Of a DNA stretch of 64,000 nt, positions 1 to 6,903 are shown one piece after another. Made by a program: the position numbers and the translations under genes. The notes beneath the pieces were generated by a model that worked only from the letters and a program-made list of their open reading frames with translations, was not told the origin of the DNA and did no database searches. The stretch is from Bacteroidales bacterium (lineage in GTDB: Bacteria > Bacteroidota > Bacteroidia > Bacteroidales > UBA932): NCBI GenBank assembly GCA_015060225.1, contig SUYX01000005.1, forward strand, positions 1-64,000. The letters run 5' to 3'. Position 1 is the first letter of the stretch. The number at the start of each line of letters is the position of its first letter.

Positions 1-575
1 ACATCACAACTCCGTATAATCCGAATGCAGCAGTACTGCACTCTGCCAACAATAAAACACTCCAGGAACTCCCTTGTTTATTTGAGCAGAACAAAAATTT
101 AAAGTATCTGTACATACCCATTCTTCCTTGCGATCTTGAAGAAACCCTCTCACACCTGTGCAGTACCCTCACCCCTATAAATGCAGGGGGCGGACTGGTA
201 CAGAATACCGAAGGGGAATACCTACTCATCTTCAGAAACGGCTTGTGGGACCTCCCAAAAGGGAAACAGGAAGAGGGTGAAGAGATTTCACTCACCGCGC
301 TGCGCGAAGTGGAAGAAGAGTGCGGTATCACCGGCCTGGAGCAGGGAGAACTCCTCTGCATCACCCACCACACCTACCGCATGAACGGAGAGCACATGCT
401 CAAACACACCTACTGGTACAAAATGACCTACAAAGGAGACTGCACCACTGCAATTCCTCAGCAGGAAGAGGGAATCAGCCGTTGCGAATGGGTACCGGCC
501 TCCCGTCTGCCAGAATACCTGCAGAACACCTACCCCTCAATAAGGAAAGTATTTGAAGAGGCGGGGCTACTGTAG
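1..575 (+). CDS. NUDIX hydrolase (5' truncated by window edge)
   Basis: Frame 3 is open from the window start (ITTPYNPNAAVLHSANN...) into the listed 243..575 ORF, so the real CDS begins upstream of the window. Perfect Nudix box GKQEEGEEISLTALREVEEECGI. Confidence 0.88.
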   Translation, partial: ITTPYNPNAAVLHSANNKTLQELPCLFEQNKNLKYLYIPILPCDLEETLSHLCSTLTPINAGGGLVQNTEGEYLLIFRNGLWDLPKGKQEEGEEISLTALREVEEECGITGLEQGELLCITHHTYRMNGEHMLKHTYWYKMTYKGDCTTAIPQQEEGISRCEWVPASRLPEYLQNTYPSIRKVFEEAGLL

Positions 576-3071
576 GGAAGTATCCACCACAGTATCCCAG
601 CCTCCAACCATACTGGCATCCCTGGTATTTATACCGGTATATTCAAGACTGTCATCTTCATACCTCTTGAACTTATAAACCGCATCGTTCATAAGTTCAC
701 TGTTGAACACATTCAGACTTACCAGCAGACTGAAATCCTTGAGAGAAAGACCTGTAACCTTTCTGAACAGTTCAGGCTCCAGTTGCGTAATTACATCCTT
801 AAGACAATACTCCCTGTAATCAGTCAGATACATGAACACAGGAATTCTGGTAGCAAACTTTATAAGTTTCTCCTGAATCTCTTTCCGCTTGCTTTTAAAC
901 TCCTTCTCTTCTGCAGTCAACTGCTTCTTCTCTTTAGGTGTAATATCATTACCTCTGCTTTTCTTAACATCCCTTACATGTTCAGACTTGTTTATAATTG
1001 TCTCAATATCTGAATTCAAGGAACGGAAACCCTCAATATTCATAAGGGCACGCATTGCTTCAGGATTGGAGAGCAATCTTTGTAGTGTTGCGTTATCAAC
1101 ATTCACCAGCAATGCACTCTCCCATCTGCGTGCCAGCAATGTTGCCGTAGTGCCGCTCATTGCCATATCCAGGATTCCGGCGGCGCTGATTTCAGTCATG
1201 GAAGTACCGTCATAGGCCAATATAGGGAGAAATTTTATGAAGTCTGCCACCTTCTTCTCGGGATTCTGTTCCTCAACATTTAGATTGCAGCTGTACTCCT
1301 GTACCTGCTTCAGGGCCCTGTTTGGAGCAAAATCAAAAACATAGCAAGTAGGCTTGAGCACAACCTCCCTTCCCCACTCATCTTTAGTTGTCCATGGAGA
1401 CTGCACCCTGAATGCTGCCTGAAAGTAGGTCTCAGGACTGGATGAATTCCTCAACATAAGGATACCTGTCCAAGGACGTACTGTAACACCCGTTGAAAGT
1501 TTCCCGCATGAAAGGGTAATTGTACAGGTCTTCTGGGGATCTCCCATAGCATTATATACCGGAAGCACAGCATCTGCTCCCATTCCGGCTTCATTACCGG
1601 CAGCAACAATAACCTTATAAGCAGAATAAAAACTGTTCTGTCTTTTTGCAAGCAGTTTGGCCATTGCCCTGCAGGAAGCAACAGATGGGAGGAACCAGTA
1701 TGTATGCTGCAGATAACTCAAGAACCTTGCATCTGTATATGGCATAGGGGGCTTCTCCCTGCCCTGCTTCAACTCTGAAACATAATTCTCCGTATATGCT
1801 CCCCTTATAAGATTAAGCCACTTCTGCACATACTCTTCATGAACAAAGGTATCATCCTCTGCAGAAAAAAACTCGTTCAGGTCAAACTCATCAAACTCTC
1901 CCTGCTCGGCAATCTCCCTTATGCTGTCGGGAAGTTGGTAAGTAAGCATAACCATCTTGGGAAGTTGGGCATAAGGATTATACTCCCCTCCATTCCACTC
2001 CTGTTTTGCCTGCTGCTCATCTGAATATGTCCAGTTGAAAATCTGTTCCTCAATAAACTCTCCGGAACTTATTGCCCTGAACGGTGTTCCCGACAAATAC
2101 AGATATGCCTTTGTCTGCAAAGGCATCAGACCTTCATCAAACAACTCCCTGAGTTCCATCTCCTTGGCAGAAGCGGCATCCTCTGCCAGAATCTTTTCTG
2201 TCTCCTCAGCACTTTTATACGCCGGATCCTTCTTGTCATAATAATTCTTTGCATTCTTACCCCAAGCACCAAAGTGATACTCATCCAAAATAATGCAATC
2301 CCATTTCACCTGCTGAATCCATTCATTTGTAGATTTGATGCCACCACTGGCATTCTTGCCAAGAACATCCTGGAACGATGCAAAGCAGACATAAGGGCTG
2401 CTCTCCTTCACCCTGTTGAATTCCCGGTTATCCTGTTTCTCACAGAATTGCCACCCCTCAAAATCCTTGTGGGTAAGCAGATCCTCTTTCCATGCACTCT
2501 TAACAGCAGGCTTGAATGTAAGGACAAGAACTCTTCTCCAACCCATTTTCAATGCCAACTGATAAGAAGTGAAAGTTTTTCCGAAACGCATCTTTGCATT
2601 CCAGAGGAAATGGGGTACAAGCCCTTTATTTGAAGGATCCTTATAAAACGATGTAAAATACCTGCTTGTTTTCTCTACTGCACGCATCTGCTCGGGACGC
2701 ATTCCAAAATCCAATATCCTCTCCATAATGGTATCGGAACCTTCCGCCACAGCGTTTATGGCATCCTCCACCTTCCGCACATCACACCTGAACCACTCCC
2801 GTTCAGGATTTTGGACACCTGCGCGGCGAAGCACTCTATGTACAGCATGATCATCAAAAGTGGTACCATCCTTGCGCATAGCCGGCCGTTGGAGCAAAAT
2901 TCTGTATCTTACTCCCGACGTCCTCACTTGCTCCTCAATCCTCACCCGTGCATCCCTTACGGTATAACCAACCTTAATGAGCCCCAAATGATCCGGGACA
3001 CCTATAAGTTCATAAGCATAAATAACCGGAACCTGTTCAACCTTGCTTTGTAAAAGATTTGTATTTGCCAT
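567..3071 (-). CDS. GIY-YIG/T5orf172-like domain + SF2 DEAD/DEAH helicase, restriction-type protein
   Basis: N-terminus YAYELIGVPDHLGLIKVGYT...EWFRC resembles T5orf172/GIY-YIG nuclease motifs. Helicase motifs NAKMRFGKTF (Walker A variant), DEYH and LSGTPFRA. Adjacent to DNA methylase genes. Confidence 0.8.
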   Translation of the reverse strand: MANTNLLQSKVEQVPVIYAYELIGVPDHLGLIKVGYTVRDARVRIEEQVRTSGVRYRILLQRPAMRKDGTTFDDHAVHRVLRRAGVQNPEREWFRCDVRKVEDAINAVAEGSDTIMERILDFGMRPEQMRAVEKTSRYFTSFYKDPSNKGLVPHFLWNAKMRFGKTFTSYQLALKMGWRRVLVLTFKPAVKSAWKEDLLTHKDFEGWQFCEKQDNREFNRVKESSPYVCFASFQDVLGKNASGGIKSTNEWIQQVKWDCIILDEYHFGAWGKNAKNYYDKKDPAYKSAEETEKILAEDAASAKEMELRELFDEGLMPLQTKAYLYLSGTPFRAISSGEFIEEQIFNWTYSDEQQAKQEWNGGEYNPYAQLPKMVMLTYQLPDSIREIAEQGEFDEFDLNEFFSAEDDTFVHEEYVQKWLNLIRGAYTENYVSELKQGREKPPMPYTDARFLSYLQHTYWFLPSVASCRAMAKLLAKRQNSFYSAYKVIVAAGNEAGMGADAVLPVYNAMGDPQKTCTITLSCGKLSTGVTVRPWTGILMLRNSSSPETYFQAAFRVQSPWTTKDEWGREVVLKPTCYVFDFAPNRALKQVQEYSCNLNVEEQNPEKKVADFIKFLPILAYDGTSMTEISAAGILDMAMSGTTATLLARRWESALLVNVDNATLQRLLSNPEAMRALMNIEGFRSLNSDIETIINKSEHVRDVKKSRGNDITPKEKKQLTAEEKEFKSKRKEIQEKLIKFATRIPVFMYLTDYREYCLKDVITQLEPELFRKVTGLSLKDFSLLVSLNVFNSELMNDAVYKFKRYEDDSLEYTGINTRDASMVGGWDTVVDTSLQ

Positions 3072-3114: not shown

Positions 3115-3492
3115 TCATTTATTATATCCGGGCTCTTCAGGCTCATTCAGCCAATTGCCCTTTTGTCCATATAAATCATAATTGTACGGCTTCCGGGATT
3201 TCCGGGATTTCCGGTATTTCTTAACAGAAATAATATCCTCGCCAAGTGCCGTTTCAATTTTTGCTATAGTTTGAATAGTAAAATTATGCTTTCCGCTCAA
3301 CCACTTTGATATTTCCGGTTCCTTCTTGCCCATAACCCTTGCCAAATCCGCCTGACTCCAACCACGGCGTTCCAAGATCTCGTTTATACGCACCACAATA
3401 TCAAAATAAAGATCAATTTCATGTCTTATTCCTTCTGGAATTTTGGCAAATTCCTGCTCTAATATTGGATGTATGTAGCAATTTTTACTCAT
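3115..3492 (-). CDS. XRE-family HTH transcriptional regulator / antitoxin-like
   Basis: RRGWSQADLARVMGKKEPEISKWLSGKHNFTIQTIAKIETALGEDI is a classic XRE helix-turn-helix. Starts immediately after the upstream toxin-like gene. Confidence 0.85.
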   Translation of the reverse strand: MSKNCYIHPILEQEFAKIPEGIRHEIDLYFDIVVRINEILERRGWSQADLARVMGKKEPEISKWLSGKHNFTIQTIAKIETALGEDIISVKKYRKSRKSRKPYNYDLYGQKGNWLNEPEEPGYNK

Positions 3493-4120: not shown

Positions 4121-5632
4121 TTACTCCATAGGACGTATCATTGATTCAATAAACTCTATCTCCTCCTGTGTAAGTTTGTATTTCTCATACAGCATCTCAT
4201 CTGTCCAAGGGTGGGAGAAATCTACCCATGGTACAAATTGGAAATTACTTATAGAAATATTCATCCCGACGAGAGTCTGTAAAATAAGAAACCTGACAAA
4301 CTTGGTCCTTAAATACGTATAGGTATTTTCAACTTCCCCACTATTTTTAGAAGGACAAATTACAAGATATGACTGTGTACATATTTGATTTGGTGACAAT
4401 ATTTCCATTCTGCTAAGTACTCTATATTGTCCATCCTTGTTTGGATTGCCTGCATGTTCACAAGACAACTTTGATATCATCACTTTGTATGAATCTACAC
4501 TATCCAGCCCTTTACAAATATCTTTCTTTGCCACATACATCCAACCCTTACTGCTAACTATTTCACAATCTCCTTCCTCTTTTTCTGACTTGCCAACAAA
4601 CGTTGATAAAAAGCCATACGGAGTCTGAGAACTGCAACCTCCAGGATGTGATAAAGTTTTTCCCTTATGGGATAAAACTTTATGAATTATTGATACTGAT
4701 TCATTACGTCTGATGAAGATATCAAACTCATTCAATTTTCTAATGGAATTGCTCAACTTGGAATTTGTAATATTACAAAAATCACATGGGCCATCATATT
4801 CATATTGCCATAGGAAATAGCAAACCCCACCATTAATATCAACACCTGGAAAACAATCATTTGAATCTGTAAAATCTACTATATTGGATATTTTTCCACA
4901 AGACAACATCATTTTCCTGAAATCATCCAATCCTACACCTCCTGCAAACCACCTTGACGGTATAATCATTGAGAGATATCTTGGCGATAATCTAATGGCT
5001 TGTTCTACGAACTTGTTATACAGAGGTATTGCACCAAGTCCCTTTCCACTCTCATTAACTTGCAACTGATACGGCGGGTTTCCTATTATTACGTCAAATT
5101 TCATGTTTCCAAATATTTTAGCGGGTTTGTCTGTATGGATGAACTGGTATGCATATTGCTCGGCCTGGGAACCACGGTCATAAACCGCCTGGCTTGCTCC
5201 GCAATAGATGCATTTGCCCCCTTCCCAGGTGTGGGAGAGCGGCTTGTAGAGGATGTTCCCCTCAGGAGTTTCAAATTTTGTTACAGAGTGTTTTCCGCTT
5301 GCTGTTTTGGAACAATAGACAGATCGCCTTGCCAGAAGTGATGTAAGTTCTGTACAGGCTATGCCATAGACCTGATTGTGCATTATGTGGTCTATCCGCT
5401 TCTGCCTGTCGGGAATAACAGATTCAAGACCTTTGTCAAGTCTTTTTACTATTTCCCTCAAGAATACGCCACTTTTGGTAAAAGGGTCAAGGAATTTTGT
5501 TTCCGGACTTTCAAAGAGCCCGGAAGGGAGCAAATCCAAGAGTTGGTTTGCCAGTGAAGGAGGTGTAAACACCTCGTCATTGCTCAGATTTGCAATGCAA
5601 TTAAGGACGTCGGGATTATATCTGTTCTCCAT
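4121..5632 (-). CDS. Eco57I-type N6-adenine DNA methyltransferase (NPPY-containing)
   Basis: VIIGNPPYQLQ catalytic motif, N-terminal VFTPPSLANQLLDLLP...FLDPFTKSGVFLREI, long C-terminal region that may hold target recognition. Confidence 0.85.
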   Translation of the reverse strand: MENRYNPDVLNCIANLSNDEVFTPPSLANQLLDLLPSGLFESPETKFLDPFTKSGVFLREIVKRLDKGLESVIPDRQKRIDHIMHNQVYGIACTELTSLLARRSVYCSKTASGKHSVTKFETPEGNILYKPLSHTWEGGKCIYCGASQAVYDRGSQAEQYAYQFIHTDKPAKIFGNMKFDVIIGNPPYQLQVNESGKGLGAIPLYNKFVEQAIRLSPRYLSMIIPSRWFAGGVGLDDFRKMMLSCGKISNIVDFTDSNDCFPGVDINGGVCYFLWQYEYDGPCDFCNITNSKLSNSIRKLNEFDIFIRRNESVSIIHKVLSHKGKTLSHPGGCSSQTPYGFLSTFVGKSEKEEGDCEIVSSKGWMYVAKKDICKGLDSVDSYKVMISKLSCEHAGNPNKDGQYRVLSRMEILSPNQICTQSYLVICPSKNSGEVENTYTYLRTKFVRFLILQTLVGMNISISNFQFVPWVDFSHPWTDEMLYEKYKLTQEEIEFIESMIRPME

Positions 5633-6260
5633 AAGCCTGCGGAGTTAGTTTAAGAAAATGTACCGGCTTGTAGGTCTTGCAGGGGAGATCTGAGAAAAGG
5701 TCTTCACCTTCATTCTCTCCCACCAGATAAGAGAACTCATAGTCCCTCCTATTCACCATACCTTTTCCTATGAAACCCCATTCGCAGATATGAATCCACT
5801 GATTTGAGTCGTTGGCAAGTTTATAGGTAAGTGCATCCCCGTGGATAATGTTTTTTGAAAGGAGATATCGGGCACTTTCAATACACTCCATCTTGCACCT
5901 GCTCCTGTAAAGGGCAGCATACTCCTCCTTGAAGAAGTCCAACAGGCGTTTCCTGCACGCAATTGCATTGTCTTCCAGCAGTTCTATTCCATAGATACTG
6001 GAGACTGACTGCACTGCAGACTGTTCCCATTGGAGTTGGGTGTATTGTTTTGCTTTTACTCTACCACTGCAGACAGCCAGTTTACGGCGGAGAATTTCAA
6101 TGAGAAAATTCCCATCACCGCAAGCGGGCTCCAGGAAACGGGAATCTATCCTTTCCGTCTCCTGTTTTACAAGATCGAGCATGGCATTGACCTCACGCTG
6201 GGATGTAAACACCTCACCATGAGCAGCCACCCTCTCCTTTGATTTGATCTGGTGGTCCAT
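5616..6260 (-). CDS. N6 DNA methylase-like subunit with SAM-binding motif I
   Basis: GEVFTSQREVNAMLDLV...RFLEPACGDGNFLIEILRRKL; overlaps the downstream methylase gene by 17 nt. No NPPY motif in this ORF. Confidence 0.82.
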   Translation of the reverse strand: MDHQIKSKERVAAHGEVFTSQREVNAMLDLVKQETERIDSRFLEPACGDGNFLIEILRRKLAVCSGRVKAKQYTQLQWEQSAVQSVSSIYGIELLEDNAIACRKRLLDFFKEEYAALYRSRCKMECIESARYLLSKNIIHGDALTYKLANDSNQWIHICEWGFIGKGMVNRRDYEFSYLVGENEGEDLFSDLPCKTYKPVHFLKLTPQAYGEQI

Positions 6261-6343
6261 TCTGCGCTATGTATGCGCATTTGATTTATCCGTTACAGAC
6301 TCCACCAGGGCACAAAAAAAGCGCGGAACTTAACTCATCCACA

Positions 6344-6456
6344 CTTCAGAGGCCCTAGGAAAGCCTGTACCTGCGAATAAGTCAAGCCCACGCAAAGCGC
6401 AGGCATTTACTGACATATCCGGATGGTACTTTCTGAAATTTCCTAGGTTTCTGAAG
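6344..6456. other. Long palindromic/structured noncoding element upstream of the methylase operon
   Basis: Arms 6344-6362 (cttcagaggccctaggaaa) and 6439-6456 (tttcctaggtttctgaag) pair over 16 bp around an AA/GCC internal loop; nested stems inside (6386-6393/6397-6404 and 6370-6375/6398-6403). Confidence 0.6.
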
Positions 6457-6627
6457 ACCCGAATAAATAGCAAATGCTAATTTTAATATGTTATTGTATC
6501 AAGTTTTTGCTTGTATTATGCAAATTTAATAATCCATTTAAATATGTTCCAAATTTCTTAAATGTTAAAAAAAGAAAAATCTATTGTTGTCAAGCAGATT
6601 TTTACCCTGTTTACGCATATCATTTAC

Positions 6628-6666: not shown

Positions 6667-6903
6667 ATGTTGGAAATCGTCAAGGCTGAATATCTGTCTG
6701 ATTACAAACTTAAGGTATGGTTCAACAATCAGCAAGTTAGGATTGTGGATTTGGAAAGCAGTTTGTGTGGAGAAGTTTTTGTTCCTTTGAGAGACAAATC
6801 CTATTTCAAAGAATTCACAATTCCTTTTAATACTGTACAATGGGATAATGGAGCAGATTTTGCCCCAGAGTATCTTTACAGGATAGGCACCCCTGCCGTA
6901 TAA
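6667..6903 (+). CDS. DUF2442 domain-containing protein
   Basis: KLKVWFNNQQVRIVDLESSL...FKEFTIPFNTVQWDNGADFAPEYLY resembles DUF2442. Confidence 0.75.
   Translation: MLEIVKAEYLSDYKLKVWFNNQQVRIVDLESSLCGEVFVPLRDKSYFKEFTIPFNTVQWDNGADFAPEYLYRIGTPAV

Follow-up and report, generated by a model that had tools for sequence, protein, structure and literature searches.

A probable bistable 5' leader RNA upstream of a methylase operon, with relatives in Bacteroidales and other Bacteroidia

The minus strand of the analysed window (a stretch of 64,000 nt from a Bacteroidales contig) probably encodes a cis-acting bistable 5' leader RNA of a methylase operon, an attenuator or start-site switch that is one of a large family occurring in Bacteroidales and in further Bacteroidia. 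Neither transcript nor expression data were available. The existence of the RNA, its helices P1 and P2, the alternative hairpin a:a', the locus-specific complementarity of the leader and of the terminator strand T3, and the association with DNA methylases were established by comparing homologous sequences; transcription, termination, which fold turns the operon on and what decides between the folds were inferred.

The methylase operon begins at position 6260 and encodes, on the minus strand, a methyltransferase subunit A (start codon 6258–6260, gene 5616–6260; MmeI_Mtase-like, a weak Pfam match), a subunit B of the Eco57I family (4121–5632) and a protein with T5orf172 (GIY-YIG-like) and ResIII helicase domains (567–3071), which is the probable restriction partner. 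It also encodes an HTH protein (3115–3492) that matched the PADLOC candidate PDC-M64C (E 6e-33). All elements of the RNA described below lie on the same strand. Inspection of the sequence revealed a putative Bacteroidetes −7 box (TAnnTTTG; TAAATTTG, 6521–6528) and, 21 nt upstream of it, TTTG as a putative −33 box (6550–6553). TAnnTTTG occurred no more than 90 nt upstream in 38 of 73 copies of the RNA, compared with 3.6 expected from shuffles. The inferred transcript starts with a 5' hairpin, CAAG-CAAAAA-CUUG (6500–6513), and, as judged by eye, homologues carried hairpins of differing sequence at this position. A small DUF2442 gene on the opposite strand (6667–6903) adjoins the putative RNA promoter; the DNA round its start recurs in two genomes of the same genus (G024 and G006), where the RNA had no match.

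The sequence-only reading had singled out a palindrome at 6344–6456 as a structured leader or regulatory RNA, a small noncoding RNA or a MITE-like element. All pairings it named were found in the window sequence: the outer arms CTTCAGA/TCTGAAG (6450–6456 with 6344–6350) and CCTAGGAAA/TTTCCTAGG (6439–6447 with 6354–6362), the inner hairpin CCTGCGC/GCGTGGG (6397–6403 with 6386–6393), GTACC/GGTAC and ATCCGGAT. The palindrome was not random, as each strand folded better than 200 of 200 dinucleotide shuffles (z −5.1 for the minus and −4.2 for the plus strand), and the methylase operon is likewise read from the better-folding minus strand. Its span coincided nearly perfectly with the base of helix P1, yet it forms only the central part of a 5' leader of approximately 6261–6515, and the functional unit also takes in the promoter-like boxes. 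The pairing CCTGCG/CGCAGG (6370–6375 with 6398–6403), named as an alternative to the inner hairpin, is present in the window but was rejected as a conserved exclusive pairing; it is peculiar to the window sequence, and its second strand was missing in homologues such as L015. The conserved exclusive pairings were instead a:a' versus P2, and the leader and T3 versus the 3' half of the RNA. Mutually exclusive pairings therefore exist, although the decisive ones lie partly beyond 6344–6456, in strand a, the terminator strand and the leader up to the AUG.

In the first of two folds, fold X, the 5' strand of P1 (CUUCAGA and CCUAGGAAA; 6439–6456) pairs with a 3' strand (UUUCCUAGG and UCUGAAG; 6344–6362), which leader complementarity and predicted folds also mark as the alternative partner of the leader. 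P1 encloses the P2 hairpin (6374–6403), with its 5' strand at 6397–6403, its 3' strand at 6386–6393 and a lower 3' strand, GACUUAUUCG, at 6374–6383. With a covariance model, the same RNA was found in the same orientation and place upstream of 75 of 78 genes for homologues of methylase subunit A taken from the GTDB collection, in addition to the window. The element lay 150–200 nt upstream of these genes, its orientation kept. P1 (outer and inner arms), P2, a terminator-like hairpin and a U-run were visible in the alignment of these homologues (A2), in which 19 of 32 pairs had double changes (86 cells, 0/500 shuffles) and every slide of the pairing collapsed. In 100 distant copies fitted to the covariance model, 624 double-change cells were counted versus 163 in shuffles (0/500), and slides again collapsed. 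Covariation, which had been proposed as the check on a structured leader with mutually exclusive pairings, was strong and supported that proposal; a conserved secondary structure can be inferred from it. P1 arms also paired far better with their own than with swapped partners (z −37.8).

Fold Y has a different 5' hairpin, formed by strand a (GCAUUUGC..UUAUUCGG; 6459–6477) and strand a' (CCGGAUAUGUC..AAAUGCC; 6402–6422), in which GCAUUU and UUAUUCGG pair with CCGGAUAA and AAAUGC. This pairing was found in 95.7% of cells, with 18 compensatory double-change cells (0/500 shuffles) and an own-versus-swapped z of −14.8. By covariation, a' is common to both folds, and since it overlaps the base of P2, a:a' and P2 are mutually exclusive. 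A pseudoknot in which a and a' cross P1 was rejected in favour of the simpler 5' hairpin of an alternative fold, because a:a' and the duplex of leader and 3' half form together in the predicted full-length fold. The terminator-like hairpin (T5 GUGUGGA, T3 UUCCGCGC) and a U7 run follow at 6314–6344. T5:T3 covaried in both alignments, the U-run was conserved, and T3 complemented the P2 3' strand of the same RNA (z −15.2 against swapped partners) in both of the subclasses described below. A hairpin followed by a U-run and exclusive with another helix is thus present. Strand a might also pair with the terminator loop GGAUAAG as an anti-terminator, but this pairing, although conserved, lacked locus specificity (z −0.6) and was rejected.

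Between the U-run and the AUG lies a leader of about 57 nt (median), at 6261–6313 in the window, where it is complementary to the 3' half of the RNA up to the base before the AUG. At methylase-type loci almost the whole leader, to that base, complements the 3' half of its own RNA. For the leader:RNA duplex, energies summed over 85 non-redundant copies gave −2852, compared with −2272 ± 39 for permuted partners (z −14.8). The complementarity persisted in 44 non-exported genes with the methylase-A family left out (z −12.3, 0/20000 permutations), whereas 31 exported-like genes had hardly any (z −1.9). Analysed by column within the methylase family, the leader was 70% paired; double-change cells exceeded shuffles and double-change pairs did not, a modest covariation that is explained by the poor alignment of the leader. 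That the RNA complements its own leader and not others' would also fit a trans-acting small RNA, in which transcripts terminated at the U-run accumulate and pair with the read-through mRNA leaders of the same locus, giving gene-dosage feedback or a lag once a new cell has been entered. The promoter-like boxes and the terminator-like end are compatible with this explanation; the same pairing is, however, available in cis at far higher local concentration. Trans action was not tested and we regard it as unlikely, although the data do not rule out that the leader also yields a separate, terminated small RNA on the side; a small noncoding RNA was one of the options raised by the sequence-only reading.

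Folding predictions agreed with an exchange between the two folds in cis. For the window RNA up to the U-run, P1 and P2 dominated, which corresponds to fold X, with the 5' half paired to the 3' half and the AUG free. When the leader was included, the predicted optimum was fold Y, in which the a:a' hairpin is combined with a duplex of 3' half and leader that reaches the AUG and bears the terminator hairpin at its tip. Fold Y was favoured by 15.6 kcal/mol in the window; the median gain at non-exported loci was 11.7 with the own leader versus 4.1 with a swapped one, and 3.8 at exported-like loci. Predicted pairing of the 5' with the 3' half fell from 0.48 to 0.16 with the own leader and only to 0.43 with a swapped one. 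At many non-exported loci, the 10 nt directly ahead of the AUG did not pair with the RNA in the predicted optimum. These energies describe equilibrium secondary structure only.

Co-transcriptional strand exchange, with fold X first and fold Y later, was the best-supported reading of these models. We propose that the 5' half would pair with the 3' half during transcription, forming P1 and P2, and that the next approximately 50 bases would then take the place of the 5' half in a duplex with the 3' half that extends to the AUG, releasing the 5' half to fold into a:a'. T3, made just before the U-run, would compete for the P2 3' strand, and part of the transcripts would probably end at the U-run as a result. 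The gene would be on in fold X, with its start codon free, and off in fold Y and upon termination; the balance may be tipped by a kinetic window during transcription, by a ligand or by a protein. Fold X was assigned as the on state because Bacteroidetes start sites need little structure, which is general knowledge and not the outcome of a test. Metastable leaders are known from the MS2 maturation gene and from hok mRNA, where the start site is open in an early fold and is closed when another strand later causes refolding. The likeness to the RNA described here lies in the proposed open-then-closed start site; sequences and hosts are unrelated.

The family fell into two subclasses, one upstream of numerous non-exported genes, among them unrelated DNA methyltransferase and restriction genes, the other upstream of genes for exported proteins. 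A set of 38 copies, picked chiefly for strong leader complementarity, preceded genes with matches to N6_Mtase (eight), MmeI_Mtase (six), N6_N4_Mtase (five), HSDR_N_2 (three), C5 methylase (two) and EcoRI methylase, Eco57I, DarT and dynamin (one each), all counts being open to overlap. Where complementarity was weak (36 copies), most downstream products were LRR, lectin-like, Por-secretion and BACON proteins, with one N6_N4_Mtase and one GmrSD. PADLOC returned the same contrast between the two sets. As complementarity was the criterion for choosing both sets, this contrast is merely descriptive; a split by signal peptide, crude as the rule is, was blind to complementarity and left the picture unchanged. 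Since the exported-protein subclass has the same RNA with hardly any leader complementarity, masking of the start site cannot be the only function of the RNA. Attenuation may be an older function common to both subclasses, because the exported-protein subclass keeps the RNA and T3 without the leader repeat.

The same facts suit a transcription attenuator that senses a ligand or protein, like a riboswitch, with fold X as the aptamer, T3 and the U-run as the terminator, and leader complementarity as a secondary addition at some loci. Such an attenuator would account for the near-invariant residues not explained by pairing (UGCUAU, AAACC and GGGCC), for the T3 complementarity of both subclasses, for the conserved U-run, and for the exported-protein subclass, which keeps the RNA without leader complementarity. 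Its weak points are the long loop of the T3:P2 hairpin, poor for intrinsic termination, and the diversity of the downstream genes: methylases, HTH proteins and exported proteins of LRR and lectin-like type have no pathway in common, whereas the targets of a metabolite riboswitch usually do. With no ligand-binding or termination data, we consider it quite possible, at a little below an even chance. The RNA resembles attenuators and riboswitch expression platforms in being a 5' leader with exclusive helices and a terminator-like hairpin and U-run before the gene; it differs from them in that no ligand is known and in that the entire post-terminator leader is an inverted repeat of the 3' half, to the AUG.

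A broader version of the strand-exchange reading remains tentative, and we would sooner doubt it than rely on it: that the RNA is a portable, RNA-only expression limiter, a kinetic strand-exchange leader in which the segment after the terminator is, at each locus, an inverted copy of that RNA's 3' half and ends at the AUG. It would have been recruited before unrelated DNA methyltransferase, restriction and other genes of Bacteroidia, and would allow a short translation window (or translation on a signal) without a regulator protein. Restriction-modification genes that are out of balance kill the host, and their known controls are C proteins, autorepression and antisense RNA. The timing of restriction-modification by C proteins or antisense RNA (e.g., PMC3695507) likewise acts on methylase and restriction operons, but the RNA described here is a structured sense leader common to many unrelated methylase types, among them type I, II, IIG and III-like methylases. 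If the broader version is true, it would constitute a general, protein-independent layer of control for defence genes in a dominant gut phylum, exerted by a hitherto uncatalogued family of RNAs present several times per genome.

We found no described family that matches the RNA, which had not been catalogued before. The comparison with Rfam proposed by the sequence-only reading gave no match at gathering score in the window (Rfam 15) and nothing credible at a relaxed threshold. When 60 additional loci holding copies or relatives were scanned, only tRNA, tmRNA, DUF805 and DUF805b were found beside the RNA and none over it, and a literature search restricted to open-access sources found no such leader. 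DUF805b (RF02914) and DUF805 (RF03081), of clan CL00115, are also 5'-leader elements of similar bacteria and often precede exported proteins, but at 35–68 nt they are unlike the RNA in sequence and structure. DUF805b lay 20–73 nt downstream of nine copies on the same strand (including L092, L109 and L230), which suggests tandem leader elements before exported-protein genes; identity of the two was rejected, as they are separate elements in tandem at these nine sites. Reading of the DUF805b sites without a nearby hit to the R1 covariance model revealed no such RNA upstream; neither DUF805 nor DUF805b had a gathering-score match in the window, and DUF805b was absent from the window's own genome. 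Flavo-1 (RF01705) and other Bacteroidetes candidate RNAs (PMC2864571) are likewise multi-copy, structured and without known function. The orientation and position of Flavo-1 are not consistent, and structured 5' leaders without Rfam hits have been listed for a flavobacterium (PMC9723704). Unlike Flavo-1, the present RNA had no Rfam hit and kept a fixed orientation and distance to start codons.

With the R1 model, the RNA was detected in 125 of 393 sampled genomes of the order, in 19 of 39 genomes of the genus and in 25 of 297 genomes sampled from the phylum, nearly all of the latter from the same class. Several copies per genome were common, up to 15 in a deeper search of 22 genomes. The E-values obtained with R1 are only approximate, and the genomes are mostly metagenome assemblies. 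Among 113 fetched and oriented copies, which were the better-scoring ones, 95 had an ORF start 25–130 nt downstream, and most copies lay approximately 45–85 nt before a start codon (start codons read from ORFs); position and orientation upstream of genes were consistent. In the window's own genome, a blastn search yielded the window's match alone, and the covariance model yielded three matches at E < 1e-3 and two weaker ones, all much diverged except that of the window.

Palindromic sequence and several copies per genome would be expected of a MITE or another mobile palindrome, the third option of the sequence-only reading. That option was not borne out and hardly deserves credence: blastn revealed no near-identical further copies in the own genome, and the diverged copies covary strongly and are fixed in orientation and in distance to start codons. 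No plasmid match (blastn) was found and viral contigs had no exact match to the core; spread by phage or plasmid was rejected on these grounds, the viral search for exact AGCRTTTGCTATTTATTCGG being a narrow test. We also consider it very improbable that the palindrome is a DNA-level operator or recombination site for a palindrome-recognizing protein. In favour of such a site, palindromes in the RNA are palindromes in the DNA too, and XRE proteins follow some copies. However, G-U pairs are common and kept, the palindromes change freely in sequence without loss of pairing, and the complementarity of the leader is specific to each locus, which argues for an RNA rather than a DNA element.

Several groups of copies deviated from the window's layout. 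L069–L089 were a diverged version with the AUG directly after the U-run and no long leader; their terminator strand, GTTCCACG, repeats the P1 5' strand, which is a classic attenuator layout. L046–L064, located before methylase A, formed a sister group with quite different P1 sequences, and their leaders combined a long near-perfect complement of the P1 3' strand with a conserved CCGATTTAGACTGATGTGC motif ahead of the AUG. Copies L101, L103 and L104 were located directly before short XRE-type HTH proteins, and similar proteins occurred in several genomes. Two diverged copies in the window's own genome (G000), L120 (C38:2382–2540) and L121 (C24:35348–35505), preceded genes for an exported protein and a carboxypeptidase-regulatory-like protein, respectively, and a tmRNA gene was located approximately 0.8 kb upstream of L121.
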